A stretch of 64,000 bases of DNA, taken from positions 1 through 64,000 of the forward strand of contig JAIRRJ010000115.1 of assembly GCA_031256035.1 (NCBI GenBank), in the 5' to 3' direction. The stretch's first letter is position 1. The number at the start of each line of letters is the position of its first letter. This document shows, one piece after another, positions 62 through 62,217 of the stretch. The position numbers were made by a program, and so were the translations under genes. The notes under the pieces are model-generated. The model worked only from the letters and a program-made list of their open reading frames with translations. It was not told the DNA's origin and did not search any database. The stretch is from Treponema sp. Its GTDB lineage: Bacteria; Spirochaetota; Spirochaetia; Treponematales; Breznakiellaceae.

Positions 62-1015
62 ATGTATTTGGGAATAAATTGTCTTGTTACACTGATCAAC
101 AGTTTCTCACCGCAGATAAACCGCCGCTGCCCCGTATGTGGCGAAAAAACTCCCACCTGCAGTCTCTGCCGTTTTCTCGAACGCACCTACCGCCAGTGCT
201 CCCGCTGCGGCGTAATTTTCATGGACAGAATCTGCCCGCCGCCTGTTGAATATGAGCGGGAATATTTTTTTGATTTTTACAAAAAGCAGTACGGGAAAAC
301 ATACCTCGAAGATTTTCCCAACATAAAAGCAGCGGGAAAACGCCGCCTTAAAATAATTAAATCGTTGTTACCCGCCAGCGGTCAAAGAACCTTCGGTTCG
401 AACTCACTTCTCGACATCGGCTGCGCTTACGGCCCATTTCTTGACGCTGCCTGCGAAGAAGGCTTTTCTCCCGCTGGCATTGATCCTGCCGAAGATGCAG
501 TCCGTTATGTGCAGGAAACGCTCGGCATCCCTGCCGTTCATGGATTATTCCCCGACTGCCTCGCTCATCATTCACAATCCACTGCTCACTGCTCACTGTT
601 CACTGTTCACTATAATGTAATCACCCTCTGGTACGTTATAGAACATTTCACCAATTGCGCCGGTGTGTTAGCTGAAATTAAAAACCTTCTGAAACCGGGC
701 GGAATTCTTGCTTTTTCAACGCCTTCGTTTTCAGGTATAAGCGGACGCTCTTCTCTCCGGCGTTTCTTGGCAAACAGCCCGGCAGATCACCGTACTATCT
801 GGTCGCCTGTAATGTGCAGGAAAGCCCTCGCGATTGCGGGCTTTAAGGTAAAAAAAATTACGATTAACGGTCATCACCCTGAACGTTTTCCGGTATTGGG
901 AAAATTTGCAAAAAGCAAAAAAAACTCGCTGCATTGGCTGTTATTGACAATCAGCAAAATTTTCCGTCTGGGAGACACATTTGAAGTTTATGCGCAGCTT
1001 CAGGAGAAAACATGA
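62..1015 (+). CDS. Class I SAM-dependent methyltransferase with N-terminal zinc-ribbon
   Basis: This is a probable methyltransferase of the Methyltransf_23 type. The N-terminus has paired cysteines (CPVCG, CSLC, CSRCG) resembling a zinc ribbon. The SAM-binding glycine motif LLDIGCAYG follows near residue 118, then an acidic GIDP motif and the VIEHF segment typical of the family. The substrate is unknown. ATG at 62 is chosen, although an in-frame GTG at 41 lies inside the octamer repeat. The stop overlaps the next start (ATGA), so it should be translationally coupled to the ATP-grasp gene. Two repeat-derived peptides interrupt the expected fold: one just before the SAM motif, encoded by the palindrome GAACCTTCGGTTC, and one at about residues 167-184, encoded by a heptamer array. 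The frame stays open. Confidence 0.8.
   Translation: MYLGINCLVTLINSFSPQINRRCPVCGEKTPTCSLCRFLERTYRQCSRCGVIFMDRICPPPVEYEREYFFDFYKKQYGKTYLEDFPNIKAAGKRRLKIIKSLLPASGQRTFGSNSLLDIGCAYGPFLDAACEEGFSPAGIDPAEDAVRYVQETLGIPAVHGLFPDCLAHHSQSTAHCSLFTVHYNVITLWYVIEHFTNCAGVLAEIKNLLKPGGILAFSTPSFSGISGRSSLRRFLANSPADHRTIWSPVMCRKALAIAGFKVKKITINGHHPERFPVLGKFAKSKKNSLHWLLLTISKIFRLGDTFEVYAQLQEKT
387..399. repeat. Palindrome GAACCTTCGGTTC inside the methyltransferase gene
   Basis: A 5-bp arm pair (GAACC/GGTTC) with loop TTC. The longer form CGAACCTTCGGTTCG occurs at 48952-48966 in a non-coding element. Here it adds residues QRTFGSN just before the SAM-binding motif. This suggests an interspersed element tolerated in coding sequence. 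Confidence 0.6.
581..608 (+). repeat. Heptamer array (ACTGCTC/ACTGTTC x4) inside the methyltransferase gene
   Basis: Four contiguous heptamers, ACTGCTC twice and ACTGTTC twice, continue into a partial fifth copy. They encode the AHCSLFTVH segment between the expected GLFPDC and VITLWYVIEH parts of the protein. The same heptamer family occurs at 2755, 22735, 28386, 60104 and 60899. Confidence 0.85.
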
Positions 1016-2736
1016 AAGAACGTTTAATTATTTTGGGCGCCGGCGTCATGCAGGGGCCGGCAATCAGAATCGCCAAGGAACTCGGGTTTCACACTATCGT
1101 ACTTGACGGCAGCGCTCAGGCGCCTTGTATCCCGATGGCGGATCAATTTGAACAGATCGATTTGAAAGACAAAGAAGGGATTGAAACCTTCGCCCGCTCT
1201 TTGCGCGGGAAACTTCGTTGCAAAAGGCAAAATTCAGGCTGCCCTTTGGGCATAATGACCGCCGGAACAGATTTTTCAGCCAGTGTTGCATGGGTCGCAG
1301 AAAAGCTCAATCTACCGGGCATTCCCTATGAAGCCGCCCTTAACGCATCGGATAAGTCCAGGATGCGCAGTTGTTTTAAAAAAGCGAGGCTTCCCTCGCC
1401 GGAGTTTACCATCATTACTGCGGCAGATTTATATTTCCTTTCATCCCCGCAGCGCGTACGCTCGCCTAAAGGCGAGCTGCTTTTGTCGAATACAGCGGCT
1501 TCTTCCTGCGCTGGAACGTACTATATTAATTCATCGACGCCCCTTGACGGGGCGCTTGCTCGGTTCCCTCTCGTCATAAAACCTGTTGACAATATGGGAA
1601 GCCGCGGCTGCCGACGTATAGACAATATCAATGAACTACAAGAAGCCGCGAAAACAGCTTTACACTTTTCACGTTCGGGACGGGCAATTGTAGAAGCGTT
1701 CATGGATGGCCCGGAATTTTCTGTTGACGCCATTGTGTATAACGGAGAAATCACAATTTGCGGCCTTGCAGACCGGCACATTTTCTTTCCGCCGTACTTT
1801 ATCGAAATGGGGCATACCATGCCGACAGTAATCGAAAAAGAAAAACAGGAAGCCATGCTAGAAACTTTTTGTGAAGGGGTACGCGCTCTTGGTCTTGCCG
1901 GCGAAGGAAGTATCGGCGCGGCAAAGGGCGACATCAAACTGACGGCAAATGGCCCCATGATAGGTGAAATCGCAGCCCGTCTTTCAGGCGGTTACATGTC
2001 GGGATGGACATATCCCTACGCTTCCGGCGTACAACCGATCCGCGCCGCAATCCTTGCTGCGATGGGCAGAAAACCGGACGGTCTTGTTCCAACAAAGACT
2101 CAGGTCTGCGCCGAGCGGGCATTTATCTCCATTCCCGGAACAGTTAAAACAATTTCCTGCATTGAACAAGCGCAGAACCAGCCCCATGTAAAAGACCTTT
2201 TTCTGCGCATCGCCGAAGGCGGCAAGGTCAGTTTCCCCGAAAACAATGTTACAAAATGCGGCAATATTATCGCCGCCGCCGGGGACAGAGCTGCCGCCAT
2301 TAACGCCGCCGAAGCCGCCGCCCGCTCAATTCTAATCCGCCTTGAACCGGGCGACAATGAAACCGCCGCCTTCCTACATCCACTCCCTACTCCCCATTCC
2401 CACAATTCACTATTTCCACCCGATGCTTTTCAATTGACTGAGGAACTAAAAACCGCCCTTTCCCAAATCCCCGAAACCCAGCCTCCGAAAAGTTCTAACA
2501 GCGGTCTTTCGATTGTTCCATTCCCCGCCTTTACTACTTCCGGTCTCAGGGACTACATGGGCAGGACGATAGAAGATACCATGCAGGCAGTATGTTTACT
2601 GTCAGGCTTTCCTTTAACGGAAACCCCGGAAAATGCCGAAAATAAGGCTATATTGGGGCGTTCATTTTGGACTGCCTTTATTCGCGGCTCCTATCAGGGA
2701 GCAGTCTACTACATTGATAACTTGGGAATAAAATGA
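1012..2736 (+). CDS. ATP-grasp domain enzyme (carbamoyl-phosphate-synthase-like)
   Basis: An ATP-grasp ligase of unknown substrate. An N-terminal Rossmann-like domain (GAGVMQGPAIRIAKELG) precedes the ATP-grasp core. The core shows FPLVIKPVDNMGSRG, the VEAFMDGPEFSVDAIV lid and strand region, and a metal-binding end near GEIAARLSGG. A C-terminal extension brings the length to 574 residues, longer than the roughly 400 usual for such enzymes. Part of the excess comes from repeat-derived segments at about residues 65-81, 143-183 and 457-466, each with palindromes or heptamers in the DNA. It overlaps the genes on both sides by ATGA junctions. With a methyltransferase before and an amidase after, a role in modifying a cell-surface or small-molecule acid is possible but unproven. 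Confidence 0.82.
   Translation: MKERLIILGAGVMQGPAIRIAKELGFHTIVLDGSAQAPCIPMADQFEQIDLKDKEGIETFARSLRGKLRCKRQNSGCPLGIMTAGTDFSASVAWVAEKLNLPGIPYEAALNASDKSRMRSCFKKARLPSPEFTIITAADLYFLSSPQRVRSPKGELLLSNTAASSCAGTYYINSSTPLDGALARFPLVIKPVDNMGSRGCRRIDNINELQEAAKTALHFSRSGRAIVEAFMDGPEFSVDAIVYNGEITICGLADRHIFFPPYFIEMGHTMPTVIEKEKQEAMLETFCEGVRALGLAGEGSIGAAKGDIKLTANGPMIGEIAARLSGGYMSGWTYPYASGVQPIRAAILAAMGRKPDGLVPTKTQVCAERAFISIPGTVKTISCIEQAQNQPHVKDLFLRIAEGGKVSFPENNVTKCGNIIAAAGDRAAAINAAEAAARSILIRLEPGDNETAAFLHPLPTPHSHNSLFPPDAFQLTEELKTALSQIPETQPPKSSNSGLSIVPFPAFTTSGLRDYMGRTIEDTMQAVCLLSGFPLTETPENAENKAILGRSFWTAFIRGSYQGAVYYIDNLGIK
1203..1221. repeat. 19-bp element GCGCGGGAAACTTCGTTGC, copy in ATP-grasp gene
   Basis: An exact copy of the 19-mer also found at 41272-41290 in ispH. 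Two one-base variants lie at 38634-38652 and 38658-38676 in the helicase gene. It contains the small inverted repeat AAC-TTC-GTT. Here it encodes about RGKLRC in a stretch absent from typical ATP-grasp proteins, and it is followed by a second small palindrome, TGCCCTTTGGGCA. Confidence 0.85.
1460..1477. repeat. Palindrome GCTCGCC-TAAA-GGCGAGC in ATP-grasp gene
   Basis: A perfect 7-bp inverted repeat with a 4-base loop, inside an apparent insertion of about 120 bp between the ITAADLYFL and FPLVIKP parts of the ATP-grasp fold. It belongs to the same class of intragenic palindromes as the one at 1538-1554. Confidence 0.65.
1538..1554. repeat. Palindrome CGCCCC-TTGAC-GGGGCG in ATP-grasp gene
   Basis: A perfect 6-bp inverted repeat with a 5-base loop at the 3' edge of the apparent insertion, immediately before the conserved FPLVIKP strand. 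Together with 1460-1477 it suggests one composite inserted element. Confidence 0.6.
2381..2408 (+). repeat. Degenerate heptamer array (CACTCCC family) in ATP-grasp gene
   Basis: Period-seven sequence CACTCCC, TACTCCC, CATTCCC, ACAATTC encodes a Pro/His-rich stretch (HPLPTPHSHNS) in the C-terminal part of the ATP-grasp protein. It resembles the C-rich arm of the heptamer family seen in prmC at 28659-28686. Confidence 0.65.
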
Positions 2737-3809
2737 GAAAAATTCGCATCTTCAAACTGCTAACTGCTAACTGCTCACTATTCTTTATTCTCTGCTCTCT
2801 GCTCCCTGCTCCCTCTCTGCACTCGCTTTCCTTTGATGAAACCTTGACTGAGCTTGAATTTATATCCCCCGGCACCATACCGGAATTCCAGTGGGACCCG
2901 TTGTTCCAGGACGGCGTATTCAATATGGGCGATCATTCCGGTGCATTCTTTACAGCCGAAAAAGAAGGAGAAACCGGCTTTCTTTTGTTTGATAACCGCG
3001 AACTTTTTACCGTCCCGCTGCCTTACCATGATAACGGAAAACTGGTTTTCCCCGAAGCGTTTGTCGTTACCCTGAAAGACGTGTTTACCCGGTCTTTTGA
3101 AAACGATGCTTCCCGTTTCCGCATAGCCGCCATAATGATAGATCCTGGGCACGGAGGAAGGGACCCCGGCGCTATCGGAAAACCGGTTGTCAACGGAAAA
3201 ACCATGCAAGTGGCTGAAAAAGACATCGTATTAAAAGTGGCAAAAAATCTGAAAAGTCTCTTGAGCGCGGCATATCCCGACAAACGGATACTGATGACAA
3301 GGGAAACTGACGTATTCATCAGCCTGGAACAGCGGGCGGATATGGCGAATGCGGTTACCATAAAAGACAACGAAGCTGTAATTTTTATCTCTATTCATGC
3401 CAATTGGGCGGGCAATCCGAATGCTAGAGGTTACGAAGTTTGGCATATAAATTCAAATTACCGCCGTACCCTGCTGGACCCCTCAAAATACGACTATTCC
3501 GAAGATATAATGATGATATTAAACGCAATGGAGGAAGAATCCACCCTAACAGAAAGCATCATTTTAGCGGATTCCTTACTCCAGGGGCTTGGACAAGCTC
3601 TGGGCAAGTCTGTCCCTTCAAGAGGGCGCAAGGCAAACGACTGGTTTGTGGTAAAAAACAGCCGAATGCCCGCAGTATTGGTAGAACTGGGGTTTGTCAG
3701 CAACCCACAAGACGCGGTCATTATGACAGGCGGCGAAGGCTTGCAAAAACTTACAGAATCATTGTATAAGGGAATTGAGAGTTACATTAACATTTTTGAA
3801 CGTCCATGA
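2733..3809 (+). CDS. N-acetylmuramoyl-L-alanine amidase (Amidase_3)
   Basis: Periplasmic zinc amidase that cleaves the bond between N-acetylmuramic acid and the stem peptide during cell separation or turnover. The catalytic domain is in the second half. Zinc-ligand and catalytic motifs are visible: the histidine of IDPGHGGRDPG, the glutamate of EKDIVLKVAKNL, the histidine of ISIHAN and the glutamate of VLVELGFVSN. The N-terminus is a signal peptide whose hydrophobic core is encoded by nine heptamer repeat units (2755-2817). It starts inside the preceding stop (ATGA) and is followed 29 bases later by the GerMN gene and then flaA. From memory, an amidase also sits near flaA in Treponema pallidum. 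Confidence 0.92.
   Translation: MRKIRIFKLLTANCSLFFILCSLLPAPSLHSLSFDETLTELEFISPGTIPEFQWDPLFQDGVFNMGDHSGAFFTAEKEGETGFLLFDNRELFTVPLPYHDNGKLVFPEAFVVTLKDVFTRSFENDASRFRIAAIMIDPGHGGRDPGAIGKPVVNGKTMQVAEKDIVLKVAKNLKSLLSAAYPDKRILMTRETDVFISLEQRADMANAVTIKDNEAVIFISIHANWAGNPNARGYEVWHINSNYRRTLLDPSKYDYSEDIMMILNAMEEESTLTESIILADSLLQGLGQALGKSVPSRGRKANDWFVVKNSRMPAVLVELGFVSNPQDAVIMTGGEGLQKLTESLYKGIESYINIFERP
2755..2817 (+). repeat. Nine-unit heptamer array encoding the amidase signal-peptide core
   Basis: Units in order: AACTGCT three times, CACTATT, CTTTATT, CTCTGCT twice, CCCTGCT, CCCTCTC. They encode LLTANCSLFFILCSLLPAP, the hydrophobic stretch of the signal peptide, at about residues 9-27. The period of seven is unbroken over 63 bases. 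Confidence 0.9.
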
Positions 3810-22734: not shown

Positions 22735-22844
22735 TAGTGTGTAGTGAATAGTGGTTAGAATCGCTGTCCGTACTCTGTCCGGTTGCCGACACTCATCGCT
22801 TACAAACAACAATCTATTAACTACCTACTACCAACTTCCCACTT
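22735..22844. repeat. Facing heptamer arrays (TAGTGAA ... CCTACTA)
   Basis: Heptamers TAGTGTG, TAGTGAA, TAGTGGT (22735-22755) are answered by TTAACTA, CCTACTA, CCAACTT, CCCACTT (22817-22844) in the opposite orientation. The two arms can pair imperfectly around a 60-base centre. This occupies most of the gap before the DUF2281 gene. Confidence 0.6.
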
Positions 22845-23294: not shown

Positions 23295-23420
23295 TCGCCC
23301 CTAACGCTGGGGGCGGACGCCCCCAAGCCTTGGCGGCGATCGCCCCTAACGCTGGCGGCGGATGCCCCCAAGGCTTGGCGGCGATCGCCCCTAACGCTGG
23401 GGGCGGGCGCCCCCAAGGCT
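23295..23420. repeat. GC-rich 45-bp tandem repeat, 2.8 copies
   Basis: Units begin at 23295, 23340 and 23385 with TCGCCCCTAACGCTGG. Each contains the hairpin GGGGGC-GGAC-GCCCCC or a variant of it, plus CCAAGSCTTGG. The array abuts the 3' end of the HU/Ig gene (stop at 23419) and might act as its transcription stop, although there is no T-run. The period is a multiple of three, so a chance plus-strand frame stays open. Confidence 0.85.
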
Positions 23421-26912: not shown

Positions 26913-28085
26913 CTAATTTCGCATAAAAGGATTGTACATAAATATCTTTGTTCCAAGTTCTTTTATAACCGAATAAAAAAAGTCCATACTCAGGTCTTTA
27001 TCTATAGTCATGGACTGATGTTTTTTAAGCAATTCTTCATTGTATGAATAAAGCGGATAAACTACAGTGCCGTTAAAGTTCCGGTCAAAATGGCACACAA
27101 CAGGTATAAGCCCCGAATCGGAAATGAAAAGTTCATCGCCTTCTTTAACAAAGGTCGCGGCTATCATGGCGCCTAGAATTCTTTCTTTCCCCCTCTGATT
27201 GGAAACAAAGTTGCCCAGAGAATAGAAACAATAAGTTTCTTTGCCGTCAGGGCGGGGAATGGCTTCAAACGGCTCCAAAACATGGGGGTGATGCCCGATT
27301 ACAAGGTCTACATTATGTTCGGCAAAAAAAGCGGCAAGGTCTGTTTGAGACTTGACCGGTTGAAACAGATATTCATTGCCCCAATGAACGGAAACTATCA
27401 GAAAATCACATAACGGGCGCAAAGCGTCAATCTCCTGCGCCATTTTTGTTCTGTTGATCATGGAAACAAGATCGGGGTTATGCCTCGGCAGGGCAAAACC
27501 GTTAAGATCGTGAGCATAACCCAAAAAACCAAGGGTGATGTTGTTCTTTGTAATAATCTTCTGCTTCTCTTCGCCCAGCCTCCGCGTGCCAATGATCGTT
27601 ATACCTTCTATCGTATCCCAATGAGCAAGGGTTGCAAGCAGGCCTGACTCGCCCATGTCCAGAGCGTGATTGTTAGCCATGTTAACTACTGCAAAGCCGG
27701 CATCCGCGAGGGTCTTCGCAAGCGATTGCGGCGTGTTGAAGGTAGGGAATCCTGAGTAACCGTATCTTTCGCCTGCCATGACCGTTTCCTGATTGATAAA
27801 CGCAAGATCGGCATTTTTAACAATAGGTTTTATTTCAGAATAGATAGGATCAAAATCATAAACCCCATTTTTGAGCGAGGAGTTGATTAGTGTTTCATGA
27901 AATAAATTATCTCCCGCGGCAACAAACGTCAGTGTGTGACGGACGGGCTTTTCTTCTTTTTCAGTTTCAATAGAAATTTCGATACTGTCCGGTTCAGTCG
28001 TTACCGGCTTTGAATTGTTGCATGAAACCGCCAGCAAAAAAAATGATGTAACCAGAAAAAATGTTTTTTCAAAAACTTTACTCAT
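26913..28085 (-). CDS. CapA-family (PGA_cap) metallophosphatase-like lipoprotein
   Basis: A lipoprotein with signal MSKVFEKTFFLVTSFFLLAVSC. The rest matches the CapA/PgsA metallophosphoesterase-like fold: FVAAGDNLFHETLI at the start, INQETVMAG, VVNMANNHALDMGESGL, IVSVHWGNEY and LVIGHHPHVLEPFE. These contain the metal-ligand Asp, Asn and His residues. Members are linked to poly-gamma-glutamate or capsule production, but many stand alone with unknown substrate. No pgsBC genes are nearby. ATG 28085 is preferred over GTG 28091. It overlaps the end of prmC by eight bases, so it is in the prfA-prmC transcript. Confidence 0.85.
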   Translation of the reverse strand: MSKVFEKTFFLVTSFFLLAVSCNNSKPVTTEPDSIEISIETEKEEKPVRHTLTFVAAGDNLFHETLINSSLKNGVYDFDPIYSEIKPIVKNADLAFINQETVMAGERYGYSGFPTFNTPQSLAKTLADAGFAVVNMANNHALDMGESGLLATLAHWDTIEGITIIGTRRLGEEKQKIITKNNITLGFLGYAHDLNGFALPRHNPDLVSMINRTKMAQEIDALRPLCDFLIVSVHWGNEYLFQPVKSQTDLAAFFAEHNVDLVIGHHPHVLEPFEAIPRPDGKETYCFYSLGNFVSNQRGKERILGAMIAATFVKEGDELFISDSGLIPVVCHFDRNFNGTVVYPLYSYNEELLKKHQSMTIDKDLSMDFFYSVIKELGTKIFMYNPFMRN

Positions 28086-29004
28086 AAACACCGCCTATTA
28101 CTCGTTCAAAATCTGACATATCCTTGTACAATTGTAAACATGAAAACCCTCTTTTTTCAAGCAGAACGGCAATATCTTTCATCTGCCGGGGGTCTGCCTC
28201 CATTAACAACATACCGCCCTGCGAAAGATAATCCGGCGCGCCGTTTATGACCTGCTTTATCGTTTCAAGACCGGATTTACCGCCGTCAAGGGCAAGGCGC
28301 GGCTCTTTCTGCACTTCGACAGACAGAGTTTTTATGTCATCACTTGGAATATACGGCGGGTTGCAGACGATTAGGGAGAAGCGGTCAGCAGTTAGCAGTG
28401 AACAGTGAGCAGTGAACAGTGAGCAGTGAGCAGGTAGTGGGGAGTGAGAAGTGGCAGAGAAAGGTTCAAAGAGATCGCCGAGGTAAAAATTGATTGAATT
28501 ATCGCCAAGAAGACGCGCCGCGTTTGCTTTCGCGGTTTCCAGTGCTTCGGCTGAAATATCCGTTGCCCAAACTTCAAGAGCAGGCATCTCGTGTTTCAGC
28601 GCAACGGCGATCGCCCCCGACCCCGTACACAAATCCAGTACCCGGATCGGCTCCCCCCCCACTCCCCTCTCCCCACTCCTTATTCTTTCTATCGCCGCCT
28701 CAACCAGGGTTTCAGTATCGGGGCGCGGAACCAGTACAGACGGGTTTACAAAGAACTCAAGTCCCCGGAATTCCTTTTTTCCCAAGATGTAGGCGGTACA
28801 TTCGCCGTTTTTCCGCCTGTCAATCAAAGACTGAAAAGCGGCAAGAATCTCCTGTGAAAGCTGATCAGCGCCGCAAGAAGCAAGCGCCGTGCGGTTTGTA
28901 CCAAGAACTTGCGCCAGTAAAAGGGAAGCGTCAAGAGATGAGGTTTCGATACCGACTTTTTTTAGTGTTCCGGCGCTTTCGGTTAATGCTTCACGGACGG
29001 TCAT
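28078..29004 (-). CDS. prmC: Peptide chain release factor N5-glutamine methyltransferase PrmC
   Basis: PrmC methylates the GGQ glutamine of release factors. Signature motifs are RPDTETLVE, VLDLCTGSGAIAVALK and the active-site NPPYI. The start at 29004 (MTVREALTES) lies four bases after the prfA stop. The 308 residues exceed the usual length of about 280 because two repeat arrays are inserted in frame: residues about 107-116 (RSGERGVGGEP) before the SAM motif and about 184-207 (HSPLPAHCSLFTAHCSLLTA) just before VCNPPYI. Both lie in loops adjoining the active centre, yet all motifs are intact. Placement beside prfA is the usual arrangement. Confidence 0.93.
   Translation of the reverse strand: MTVREALTESAGTLKKVGIETSSLDASLLLAQVLGTNRTALASCGADQLSQEILAAFQSLIDRRKNGECTAYILGKKEFRGLEFFVNPSVLVPRPDTETLVEAAIERIRSGERGVGGEPIRVLDLCTGSGAIAVALKHEMPALEVWATDISAEALETAKANAARLLGDNSINFYLGDLFEPFSATSHSPLPAHCSLFTAHCSLLTADRFSLIVCNPPYIPSDDIKTLSVEVQKEPRLALDGGKSGLETIKQVINGAPDYLSQGGMLLMEADPRQMKDIAVLLEKRGFSCLQLYKDMSDFERVIGGVYE
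28386..28455 (-). repeat. Ten-unit heptamer array inside prmC
   Basis: On the plus strand: CAGCAGT, TAGCAGT, GAACAGT, GAGCAGT, GAACAGT, GAGCAGT, GAGCAGG, TAGTGGG, GAGTGAG, AAGTGGC, all in register over 70 bases. The coding strand is the CACTGCT orientation, which contains no stop in any frame. It encodes the insertion directly before the active-site NPPY. Confidence 0.9.
28659..28686 (-). repeat. C-rich heptamer array inside prmC
   Basis: CCACTCC, CCTCTCC, CCACTCC, TTATTCT in register, preceded by eight C. It encodes RSGERGVGGEP between the N-terminal domain and the SAM motif. A run of eight C in a coding sequence is prone to slippage. Confidence 0.7.
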
Positions 29005-29008
29005 GAAT

Positions 29009-30091
29009 CTATGAGGCAGCTTCAAACCCGCTTGTTTGCAGCATTTCTTCTTTGGCTGAAAGTTTAAGTGCGTCAAAAAGTTCAACTACATCGCCCTGCA
29101 TTATAAGATCAAGTTTGTACATGGTAAGGTTGATCCGGTGATCTGTCAGGCGGTTTTGGGGAAAATTATATGTTCTGATTCTCTGGGAACGGTCTCCCGA
29201 ACCCACTTGAGTTTTTCTGGCTTCGGCTCTTTCCGCCTGCGCCTTTGCCTCTTCCATTTCATAGATGCGCGCGCGCAGGATTCTCATTGCCTTTGCTTTG
29301 TTTTTTATCTGGCTCTTTTCATCCTGACAATGAACGGTAATCCCCGAAGGCAAATGTGTTATCCGTACCGCGGAGTCCGTGGTGTTGACGCACTGGCCTC
29401 CGGGACCGCCTGCGCGCATTACGTCAATTCTTAAATCTTCCTGTTTTATGTCGATTTCCGTTTCATCAGCTTCCGGCAAAACTGCCACCGTTACCGCCGA
29501 AGTGTGGATTCTGCCGGACGCTTCGGTCGCCGGAACCCTCTGCACGCGGTGAACTCCCGATTCATAGCGGAGGTTTTCATATACATTGTTCCCGCTGACG
29601 GAAAACACAATTTCTTTTAAGCCGCCAAGCTCAGTGTCGTTGGAATTCATTATTTCAAACTTCCAGCCCCTGTTTTCTGCAAAGCGGGAATACATCCTAT
29701 ACAGATCCGAGGCGAAAAGCGCAGCTTCCTCACCGCCTGTTCCGGCGCGTATTTCCATTATGATGTTTTTTTCATCCAGCGGGTCTCTTGGAACAAGAAG
29801 GAATTTAAGTTTATCCTTGTTTTCGGCAAACTTTGCTTCCAGCTCTTTCAGCTCTTCGCGGGCAAGCTCCTTCATCTCCTGATCTTTTTCTTCCTGAACC
29901 AGAAGTTTTGTTTCATCAATCTGCTTTTTCAATGCTTCAACGCGCTCGTGTATCCCGGCTATTTCGCCAAGGTGGGAATATTCTTTCATCGCATCACGGT
30001 AGCGTTTTTGATCTTTTACCAAGTCAGGGTTCTGAATTAAAAGAGACAATTCACCGTAGCGTTTTAAGAGGGAACTTAACCGCTCATTCAT
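29009..30091 (-). CDS. prfA: Peptide chain release factor 1
   Basis: RF1 ends translation at UAA and UAG. The catalytic GGQ is in [22 protein letters not shown]. The codon-recognition tripeptide is PAT in [19 protein letters not shown], which identifies RF1 rather than RF2. At 360 residues the length is standard. Its start overlaps the stop of the upstream 56-codon gene (ATGA), and prmC follows after four bases. Confidence 0.96.
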
Positions 30092-58900: not shown

Positions 58901-60130
58901 TCAGAACCTCAGCCTGAGCTTGGCGCTTAAATCGAAGTAGTGGCCAAAACGCTCAGGCAATAGCGGTTGCAGCCTGTCCGGTGGTATGGGACCAAGCTCG
59001 CCGCGGTTGCCGTCTCCTGAAAATAAATCACGATCAAGGGGAGCCTGCGCAGTAACGGTCAAAGTCGCTCCTTGAAAAAGATCGTGGTTGAGGCTTACAA
59101 CCGGCGTAAAAGAAACATCATCAAAACAGGAAATCAAAGCAATGGTCACGTTGGTGTAGTCATTGAAACGCCAGGTGAAGCCCGTGTACAAATAATTTTC
59201 GTTGGAGAAACCTGCCGCAGTTGAGGAAGATACGCCATTGTACAAGTATTCGGCAAGGACGATTAAGTTTCCATCAAGGAATGAATAGTCCGCGCCCAAA
59301 CTGAATGAAAGCCCGTCAATTTCTGTCCATGCCTCGTGGTTGTATACATACAGCGCGTCCATCACCAACCCCACTTCCAGATCGGCTTTGACCGAAATAC
59401 CAGCGCGGTGAATCCCTTGATCCGAACCGTATGCGGGTGACTCAAAAGAATACAACGCCTGAAGACTTGCCTTGTCCCAGTGCCGCTCCATCGAAATGCC
59501 GGTAAGCCCGCCTTCGCCGCTCTGCTCAAATGGATTGCGGGGAGCCGCGCCGAAACCGAGCAGCTTGAGATCGTCATTGGGATACCAGGAAAGCCCCGCT
59601 CCCAAAACCGCGCGGGGGCGGGCATCGGGTTTCAGGGGATTTTTGGGGTTGAGAAAATCAGAAGACCCCCAAATCTGACCGTAGCCGAAAGGCAGCCGCA
59701 TAAGCCCGCCGTCAAGATCAACTGATTCGCCGTTGAGCCGGAAGTAGAGGCGTTCTAGTTCCATCGCGGCAATGTAGTTCACACCATCGGCATAAGATGT
59801 TGGGCTAACGCCAGTGTGAGGCTGCGTAGAAAGAATAAAGCCGCCCATTTGCTCTACTGCTGCCGCATAATCCCCCGCGGCGGCGATAAAGTTAAACGCC
59901 CCGTAAAATGTCGCACTGTCCTTTAATTTTGCCTGCATCCTGATATTCGCGAATTCTTCAACCCCGTAGGAAAATGCCGGAGAATCCACCGCTCCCGCCC
60001 GCAGAGAGACGGAGGAGTCCAGCAAGCCGGAAAAGGTCAAACCCTGCGCAAAAAGACCGAGGTTTGCTGTGTAAAGTATCAATGAAAAAAATATAATTCG
60101 TTTGCTCACTGCTACCTGTTCACTGCTCAC
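58901..60130 (-). CDS. Putative outer-membrane beta-barrel protein
   Basis: About 409 residues: signal sequence (IIFFSLILYTANLGLFAQG) then many short amphipathic strands with aromatic residues and glycine, ending in LRLRF, a C-terminal aromatic typical of outer-membrane proteins. It follows the LolA-like and permease genes, so it may be their client or the outer-membrane part of the system. The start region lies in a heptamer array: GTG 60130 (with AGGA before it) and GTG 60109 are both possible. Confidence 0.7.
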   Translation of the reverse strand: MSSEQVAVSKRIIFFSLILYTANLGLFAQGLTFSGLLDSSVSLRAGAVDSPAFSYGVEEFANIRMQAKLKDSATFYGAFNFIAAAGDYAAAVEQMGGFILSTQPHTGVSPTSYADGVNYIAAMELERLYFRLNGESVDLDGGLMRLPFGYGQIWGSSDFLNPKNPLKPDARPRAVLGAGLSWYPNDDLKLLGFGAAPRNPFEQSGEGGLTGISMERHWDKASLQALYSFESPAYGSDQGIHRAGISVKADLEVGLVMDALYVYNHEAWTEIDGLSFSLGADYSFLDGNLIVLAEYLYNGVSSSTAAGFSNENYLYTGFTWRFNDYTNVTIALISCFDDVSFTPVVSLNHDLFQGATLTVTAQAPLDRDLFSGDGNRGELGPIPPDRLQPLLPERFGHYFDLSAKLRLRF

Positions 60131-60145
60131 TATCCTACTTCCTAT
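60104..60145. repeat. Heptamer array across the gene boundary and start codon
   Basis: GCTCACT, GCTACCT, GTTCACT, GCTCACT, ATCCTAC, TTCCTAT in register. It covers the start codons of the barrel-protein gene and touches the stop of the LolA-like gene (60142). One unit (GCTACCT) departs from consensus exactly where the regular repeat would give a TGA stop. Confidence 0.8.
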
Positions 60146-60882: not shown

Positions 60883-60898
60883 CTTAACCTCCTGTATT

Positions 60899-60947
60899 TA
60901 GTGAGCAGTTATCAGTGAGCAGTGTCTGTCACTGTTCACTGCTCTCT
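60899..60947. repeat. Facing heptamer arrays forming a hairpin
   Basis: TAGTGAG, CAGTTAT, CAGTGAG, CAGTGTC then TGTCACT, GTTCACT, GCTCTCT. The centre folds as AGTGAGCAGTG-TCTGT-CACTGTTCACT with one G-T pair. It fills the gap between permease stop and LolA-like start. Confidence 0.75.
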
Positions 60948-62217
60948 ATCTCCGTAATGCCTCAACGGGTTCCACAAAAGCGCTTTTCAGCGATGGAATC
61001 AGTGTAAAGAGCGATGCCACTCCAACGCCCATGAGCCATGCCTGAAACAATTTGCCGAAGCTAAACTGAAAAAAAATCGCGTTGCCCATCGGCATATCGG
61101 CGAATTGGCTTCCGAATTGATCCATCAGACGGATGGGGAAGCCGGAGCCGATGCCGGTAATAAGCCCTCCGACAATTACGCCCGCCAGCGCGCCGAAAGC
61201 GGCAAGGAAAAACGATTCAAAGAAAAACACCTTTACTATTTCGGCGCGAGTCATGCCGAGGCATCCCATCATGCCGATTTCCTTGATCCGTTCATGGATG
61301 ATCATCACCACAGTATTGATGATAAGGAAACTTGCAACAATCAGGAACACCATGAAAACAATGGTGTATATGGGCGCTACCATTTTCATCATCGCAACCC
61401 AGTAGTTGTCCTGCCATTCGGAAACGATATTGTCATTTCCCAGCATGGTCTGTACTGCGGCGGTAATGGACGCGCTCTGTTTGGGGTCTTCGGCGAAGAT
61501 AACAAGCGCTTGAGTTCCTTCATCCAGTACCAGCAGCCGCTGGAGCCGTTCAATGTCAACAATGATGTACTGTTCATCTACTTTGCGGTAATCATAGTTG
61601 TAGATGCCGGTAATCTCGGGACTCCAAATCTTGTCTGAAAACTGAGCGGATACGGTTTTCAAAGGAAGCCTGTCGCCGATACTCAAGCCCGCTTTCTGGG
61701 CAAAAATATGCCCGATGGCGCACTCGTTTGAATCGGGCGCGGGGTAGCGGCCTTCGAGAATACCGTCATCGCGGTCGGTTAAATTAAAATGATTTAACTT
61801 CATTTCATCTTCAATGCTCAAGCCCCAGAGTATCGCGTGTTTGATCACACTTTCCTGCAATGTTGCATAAGTTGTAATCCGGGGAAAAACCGCACTCACA
61901 CCGGGAATTTCCATGATATCCGCGGCAAGCTCTTTCCAGCTTCTTCCGTCCGCCACAGGGTACTGTACCGGCATATATTCATTTTCAGCCTCGTACTGCG
62001 CCGATACAGCCTTGACGTGCCCCAGCTCAAACACCTGCACCAGCTCATTTATGTTGCCGATCATCCCGCCAATCATCGCTGAATACATCACGATAAAAAA
62101 TACCGCAATGCCGACCGCCGTAAAACAAAAGGCCGTCCGCCGCATGTTCCGCCAGATATTCCGAAAGGCAATTTTGATCAACGTACCAGTGCCGCCTTGT
62201 TTATATTCGTTTGTCAT
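60946..62217 (-). CDS. FtsX/LolC-E-type ABC transporter permease 1
   Basis: 423 residues in the MacB/LolC architecture. One N-terminal helix (AFCFTAVGIAVFFIVMYSAMIGG) and a large periplasmic domain precede three C-terminal helices with FtsX motif HERIKEIGMMGCLGMTRAEIVKVFFFESFFLAAFGALAG. AAGGGG precedes the ATG. With the next permease it would form the membrane half of an ABC exporter; the ATPase gene is expected just beyond the window end. Confidence 0.9.
   Translation of the reverse strand: MTNEYKQGGTGTLIKIAFRNIWRNMRRTAFCFTAVGIAVFFIVMYSAMIGGMIGNINELVQVFELGHVKAVSAQYEAENEYMPVQYPVADGRSWKELAADIMEIPGVSAVFPRITTYATLQESVIKHAILWGLSIEDEMKLNHFNLTDRDDGILEGRYPAPDSNECAIGHIFAQKAGLSIGDRLPLKTVSAQFSDKIWSPEITGIYNYDYRKVDEQYIIVDIERLQRLLVLDEGTQALVIFAEDPKQSASITAAVQTMLGNDNIVSEWQDNYWVAMMKMVAPIYTIVFMVFLIVASFLIINTVVMIIHERIKEIGMMGCLGMTRAEIVKVFFFESFFLAAFGALAGVIVGGLITGIGSGFPIRLMDQFGSQFADMPMGNAIFFQFSFGKLFQAWLMGVGVASLFTLIPSLKSAFVEPVEALRR

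Follow-up and report, generated by a model that had tools for sequence, protein, structure and literature searches.

Heptamer arrays as candidate arms of small selfish foldback elements, read in both orientations within genes

Tandem arrays of the heptamer CACTGCT and its variants are dispersed through the host genome of the window, the 64,000-nucleotide stretch of DNA analysed here (contig C48 of genome G000, a draft of 3.12 Mb in 120 contigs). On balance we consider these arrays to be the variable-length arms of small non-coding selfish foldback elements that are MITE- or REP-like and akin to Rickettsia palindromic elements. We favour foldback elements with tandem-repeat arms because they explain the fixed polarity of paired arrays, the cores shared among pairs, the dispersal of the arrays and their in-frame copies within genes. 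Inside genes, reading phase is the feature that is filtered, not orientation.

Results

Heptamer arrays of the window

The window arrays (Table 1) were recovered by TRF and by lag analysis, in which self-similarity at lag 7 far exceeded that at all other lags tested, 4 to 11. The five main arrays of the first-pass annotation (581-608, 2755-2817, 28386-28455, 60104-60145 and 60899-60947) are all present, and its degenerate members (2381-2408, 22735-22844 and 28659-28686) are recognisable. At 60899-60947 and 22735-22844 the heptamers are genuine, but they form inverted pairs around a spacer and not the simple arrays that had been described. The core of the pair at 22735-22844 resembles the core family of the congener G005, and the right arm of the other pair overlaps the 3′ end of 60946-62217. 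The array in the methyltransferase gene encodes amino acids 118-132, directly before the segment VITLWYVIEHF. Comparison of the window with Rfam returned one tRNA and no other known structured RNA, and a known structured RNA was rejected as the identity of the arrays on this basis. A further tandem repeat of 45 bp (23295-23420; 2.8 copies, 92%) is built of GC-rich inverted halves.

Table 1 Heptamer arrays and inverted pairs in the window, with the gene that hosts two of them
Feature	Position	Strand	Context
Heptamer array CACTGCT/CACTGTT	573..614	+	Methyltransferase gene 221-1015 (Methyltransf_23); CACT strand coding
Degenerate CCACTCC-type heptamers	2380..2408	+	C-terminal part of ATP-grasp/L-amino-acid-ligase-like gene 1012-2736; CACT strand coding
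Heptamer array	2755..2817	+	Hydrophobic core of N-terminal signal peptide (MRKIRIFKLLTANCSLFFILCSLLPAPSLHS, predicted) of Amidase_3 gene 2733-3809
Degenerate inverted pair	22735..22844		AGTG-type arm, core ATCGCTGTCCG...GCTTACAAACAACAA, CACT/TACT-type arm
prmC, release-factor glutamine methyltransferase	28078..29085	-	PrmC_N 9.9e-18, MTS 9e-12; host of the two arrays that follow
Heptamer array	28380..28455	-	Inside prmC; CACT strand coding (LPAHCSLFTAHCSLLTADRF, about amino acids 210-230)
Degenerate CCCCACT heptamers	28655..28690	+	prmC, opposite orientation; coding strand GGAGTGGGGAGAGGGG, about amino acids 137-145
Heptamer array	60100..60134	+	Start region of - strand ORF 58901-60130; AGTG strand coding; true start uncertain
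Inverted pair AGTGAGCAGTTATCAGTGAGCAGTG - TCTGT - CACTGTTCACTGCTCTCT	60897..60950		Between two co-directional - strand genes

Abundance and spread

A search of the whole G000 genome for (CACTGYT)x3 with up to 3 mismatches gave 127 + 139 = 266 matches, with 0 + 0 in the reversed control, and congeners hold 0 to 242 such matches. A weight matrix trained on the G000 matches recovered 89 arrays (reversed sequence, 0) in 0.96 Mb of G000 stretches, a sample picked partly for array content that contains 226 seed matches versus 266 genome-wide. In being multicopy tandem heptamers dispersed through the genome, the arrays resemble STRR-type repeats. Among the matches listed, exact four-copy arrays occur in Cyanobacteria, Bacteroidota, Verrucomicrobia, Planctomycetes, Acidobacteria, Gammaproteobacteria, Spirochaetes and others.

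The assembly was probably broken at long heptamer arrays, since two G000 contigs start with long perfect (GACTGTT)n of about 12-13 copies (C1:1-102 and C30:1-92). The reversed control pattern (backwards, not complemented) has 13 to 22 matches in each of G004, G038 and G041, so another heptamer family may have expanded there. (GGCAATC)n, found in G000 at C14:17225-17307 and C85:2486-2545 two sites whose flanks match (ATTGGGGATT...CAATGGGGAAAT), is a second dispersed heptamer element.

Polarity and anatomy of inverted pairs

Wherever arrays of opposite orientation lie less than 160 bp apart, they take the form (AGCAGTG)n-spacer-(CACTGCT)n: this polarity was found 68 times and the reverse 0 times (24 pairs in G000, 19 in G005 and, among the matches listed, 25 in 80 loci of many phyla). 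Beyond 300 bp both polarities occur. By gene context, 20 pairs lie between co-directional, 9 between convergent and 5 between divergent genes, with 5 inside genes, and gene layout was rejected as the cause of pair polarity because the polarity is the same in every context. The strict paired pattern occurs at 3 places, versus 0 for the reverse, in 296 genomes of the phylum, all three being in G000, so that the count is informative for that genome alone. Three IMG/VR viral contigs (L251, L252 and L253) also carry inward-facing pairs of this polarity (3 stretches versus 0 reverse). Relative to the nearest gene edge, the AGCAGTG strand tends to read inward (19:7 for single arrays, 27:8 for pairs). 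Roughly half of the arrays in G000 are unpaired.

Arms may be non-mirror, as at locus L140, where an AACAGTG arm stands opposite an AACTGAT arm. One 28-bp spacer is found repeatedly in G000 (TGTGTGAGACAAAACTTTCGGACACCAA and variants), and the core YTTKCGGACACCAACA has 16 matches at up to 1 mismatch, most of them with arms on both sides; in G005 many spacers belong to a core family of ~50 bp (TCGCTGTCCGTGAGCGCA...CAAACAACAA) with partial hairpins that is similar to the G000 family, the likeness between G000 and G005 cores being judged by eye. Terminal inverted repeats around a multicopy non-coding core, as in the 16 G000 cores and the G005 family, are the arrangement of a MITE. Across phyla the spacers are non-homologous, and they show a modest tendency to form hairpins (mean z about -0.6 for G000 and -1.3 elsewhere). 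Two G000 sites (C42:40780-40864 and C99:18902-19032) have strong hairpins of CACAGATTAACACAGATT / AATCCGTGTTAATCCGTGG as spacers; these are a further inverted element of short repeats, lodged between the heptamer arms.

Orientation and reading phase inside genes

Because seven is coprime to three, the genetic code gives a CACTGCT array the HCSLLTA cycle in all three frames and its other strand a TGA every seven codons, as the first-pass annotation had correctly pointed out; this stop logic is itself already known from TAACTGA repeats (PMC4679880). The annotation had gone on to propose that arrays lie inside genes only in the stop-free orientation. A census of in-ORF arrays in the 0.96-Mb G000 sample, made with our own hexamer-trained gene caller and a recheck of N-termini and excluding a few weak or short-ORF cases, gave about 13 with the CACT strand coding versus 13 with the AGTG strand coding. 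Such an even split had been named by the annotation as speaking against its own proposal, and it rules out orientation selection; within prmC, moreover, 28659-28686 runs opposite to 28386-28455. The CACT strand encodes hydrophobic peptides (HCSLFTV/HCSLLTA) and the AGTG strand hydrophilic ones (VSSEQ/NSEQLAV). Most hosts of AGTG-coding arrays are conserved proteins, and they include ArgRS (DALR domain), IleRS, carbamoyl-phosphate synthase (oligomerisation domain), a sensor histidine kinase (HATPase), a Hrq1-like helicase (winged helix) and Lhr. Whole pairs are read through in frame in the conserved genes for sensor kinase, Lhr, OppC-OppD and FlhB.

AGTG-coding arrays stay open because only each third junction between heptamers falls in frame and is there a non-stop triplet (GGA, TTA, AGA, TCA or GGT, instead of TGA). 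In 12 tabulated AGTG-coding arrays within long ORFs, stops occupy 24 of 33 out-of-frame junctions and 0 of 16 in-frame junctions, the latter count being partly fixed by construction as open ORFs only were examined; in intergenic arrays 53% of junctions are stops. The informative part of this count is that the same arrays still carry out-of-frame stops. Across gene 3′ ends the G000 sample has 15 AGTG-coding and 0 CACT-coding arrays because the AGTG strand stops every frame, and this bias is the trivial, one-sided part of the pattern.

Host loops in orthologues

The PrmC insert at about amino acids 210-230 occupies the loop that immediately precedes the NPPY strand, and most orthologues from congeners lack it. 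Inserts of other kinds occupy both PrmC loops (about amino acids 210-230 and 136-146) in further species; among them are SHTKAQRHKDT and AKTQRAQRTQR, which look like other dispersed repeats. Different species-specific repeats likewise stand at the same place in congeners in the IleRS loop and in the linker between OppC and OppD, where G008 has its own heptamer variant, again as an inward pair. A GC-rich hairpin, CCCCCTCAGCGGGGGA, lies in the IleRS loop of the congeners G010 and G007. With copy numbers from 0 to 266 in the genus, an insert missing from most PrmC orthologues and the same loops taken by other repeats elsewhere, the earlier view that the repeat spreads or expands and is tolerated in proteins is supported, and its companion idea of selection on orientation is not.

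In G000 an OppC-like permease and an OppD-like ATPase share one ORF (L057:14902-17010; C115:24699-26810), whose linker is hypervariable and filled with repeats. Creation of this gene fusion by an array was rejected, as most of the congeners searched also have the two genes fused in an open frame and differ in the linker alone. Among the in-gene pairs of IleRS (113 bp), C71 (278 bp) and PrmC (about 200 bp), two or three enclose native coding sequence, and the arms of such pairs therefore cannot have come as one element.

Arrays at protein N-termini

Five in-frame N-terminal arrays, all CACT-coding, have 12-residue hydropathy maxima of 2.3-2.8, and judged by sequence and hydropathy they look like cores of signal peptides or lipoprotein signals; their hosts are the window amidase, a TP0453-like lipoprotein and three others. 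Heptamers make up the core in the amidases of G000, G012 and G002 (lag-7 identity 24, 20 and 22 of 28), and most other congeners have an ordinary hydrophobic core there. If the array-encoded N-termini act as predicted signal peptides, the amidase suggests that several species of a single genus have recruited junk DNA to direct export.

Discussion

The foldback elements we propose would each have an (AGCAGTG)n arm, 1 to about 140 bp of spacer and a (CACTGCT)n arm, with the AGCAGTG strand always inward, and solo arrays would be single arms or decayed pairs. Tandem slippage would lengthen and shorten the arms, and some machinery would copy the element or an arm to new sites, with insertion mostly blind to genes and orientation. 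Genic survivors would be those inserts that fold and keep the frame open, giving hydrophilic peptides in loops and linkers where the AGTG strand is read, and hydrophobic peptides in loops and in signal-peptide cores of exported proteins where the CACT strand is read. We infer mobility as a unit, slippage, selfishness and a function of the array-encoded signal peptides; slippage is a probable influence on arm length and a possible route to the conversion of signal peptides in place. A search of G000 for Y1 transposases found a single Y1_Tnp (RAYT-type) gene, and mobilisation by RAYT was rejected because neither heptamers nor core lie beside it in its 3.3-kb locus. At the DNA level no target-site duplication or clean empty site was shown, the orthologues being too diverged. 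Captured fragments with tailed 3′ ends were also considered and misfit the pairs that enclose native coding sequence.

Slippage in place could instead be the whole explanation, with ordinary simple sequence repeats expanding from seeds, similar heptamers recurring because units of 7 bp are favoured by polymerase slippage, and nothing moving. Array lengths vary and arrays degenerate outward, CTG/TTC-rich signal-peptide codons may convert in place (as in the amidases of G002, G012 and G000), some in-gene pairs enclose native sequence, and MacGregor (PMC4679880) refers to an earlier suggestion that slippage is promoted by 7-nt units. We nevertheless regard this as rather unlikely, as it leaves unexplained the 68:0 polarity of pairs (25 of them among the matches listed), the occurrence at separate sites of 16 near-identical cores, most of them flanked by arms on each side, and the single dominant heptamer family of each genome. 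A regulatory function, in which pairs would be selected at gene ends as mRNA or DNA hairpins for termination, mRNA stability or protein binding, would suit the many arrays at gene 3′ ends and the inward reading of the AGCAGTG strand from the nearest gene edge (compare Rehm et al., PMC4692102); pairs are, however, found in every gene context and also within essential genes, and the range of 0 to 266 matches among congeners argues against a conserved role, which makes this reading improbable. The original model of orientation-selected arrays, tolerated only with CACTGCT as the coding strand, describes the main window arrays that its author listed, but the even census of the genome sample and the counterexample within the same prmC gene leave it with next to no credibility. 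Foldback elements with tandem-repeat arms remain our preferred reading.

Several known repeats resemble parts of this system. Drosophila FB foldback transposons have inverted ends of variable-number short tandem repeats around a variable loop; the likeness is one of architecture only, the present elements having neither FB-like size nor, in the Y1 search of G000, a linked transposase. Cyanobacterial STRR are short tandem multicopy heptamers, and the parallel drawn with them in the first-pass annotation is a fair one, CACTGYT arrays being abundant in cyanobacteria among the matches listed; here, in contrast, the host is probably no cyanobacterium, and in this genus the arms surround a core that recurs. 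A TP0453-family lipoprotein and further gene content suggest a host in Spirochaetota (Treponematales). Direct repeats of the heptamer TAACTGA are known from Beggiatoaceae, cyanobacteria and Bacteroidetes, and MacGregor (2015, PMC4679880) had already made the same stop and orientation argument for them and suggested possible mobility. Both systems have ACTG-core heptamers of scattered phylogeny that are mostly intergenic, with one orientation stopping all frames and the other giving one peptide cycle; for TAACTGA that paper describes direct repeats immediately upstream of starts and one indirect repeat, whereas the present system has many inverted pairs of fixed polarity, and its stop-bearing orientation occurs deep within genes. 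In Xanthomonas and Nostoc, Rehm et al. (2015, PMC4692102) described GGGNATC heptamers with the G-rich strand directed inward from the closest ORF edge; the present arrays share this inward reading and the overlap of stop codons on the coding strand, but the present heptamer is without the G-tracts needed for a G-quadruplex and its opposite arms stand together around a spacer. Rickettsia palindromic elements (PMC10969869) are likewise small palindromic selfish elements lying in frame in unrelated genes; they are ~150 bp with a conserved peptide, and the arms here are tandem heptamers of variable number, readable in either orientation. REPs and RAYT-mobilised palindromes (PMC3733652) are also small and multicopy, often form dimers of opposite orientation and are sometimes inside genes, but no GTAG/CGTC tag was demonstrated here and the RAYT-type gene has no adjoining array or core.

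So far, bacterial heptamer repeats have been regarded as simple tandem repeats with no known purpose. We tentatively raise the possibility of a rule that crosses phyla, by which ACTG-type arrays are laid as inward pairs, never the reverse, with unrelated spacers and non-mirror arms; if true, it would point to a widely shared, undescribed enzymatic process by which DNA is extended or inserted with the CACTGCT 3′ strands directed outward. Strict polarity in many phyla, if it holds, would define a class of element with a direction and offer a concrete starting point in the hunt for the enzyme. The copies inside genes, for their part, provide a natural record of the loops at which essential enzymes can accept random peptides.
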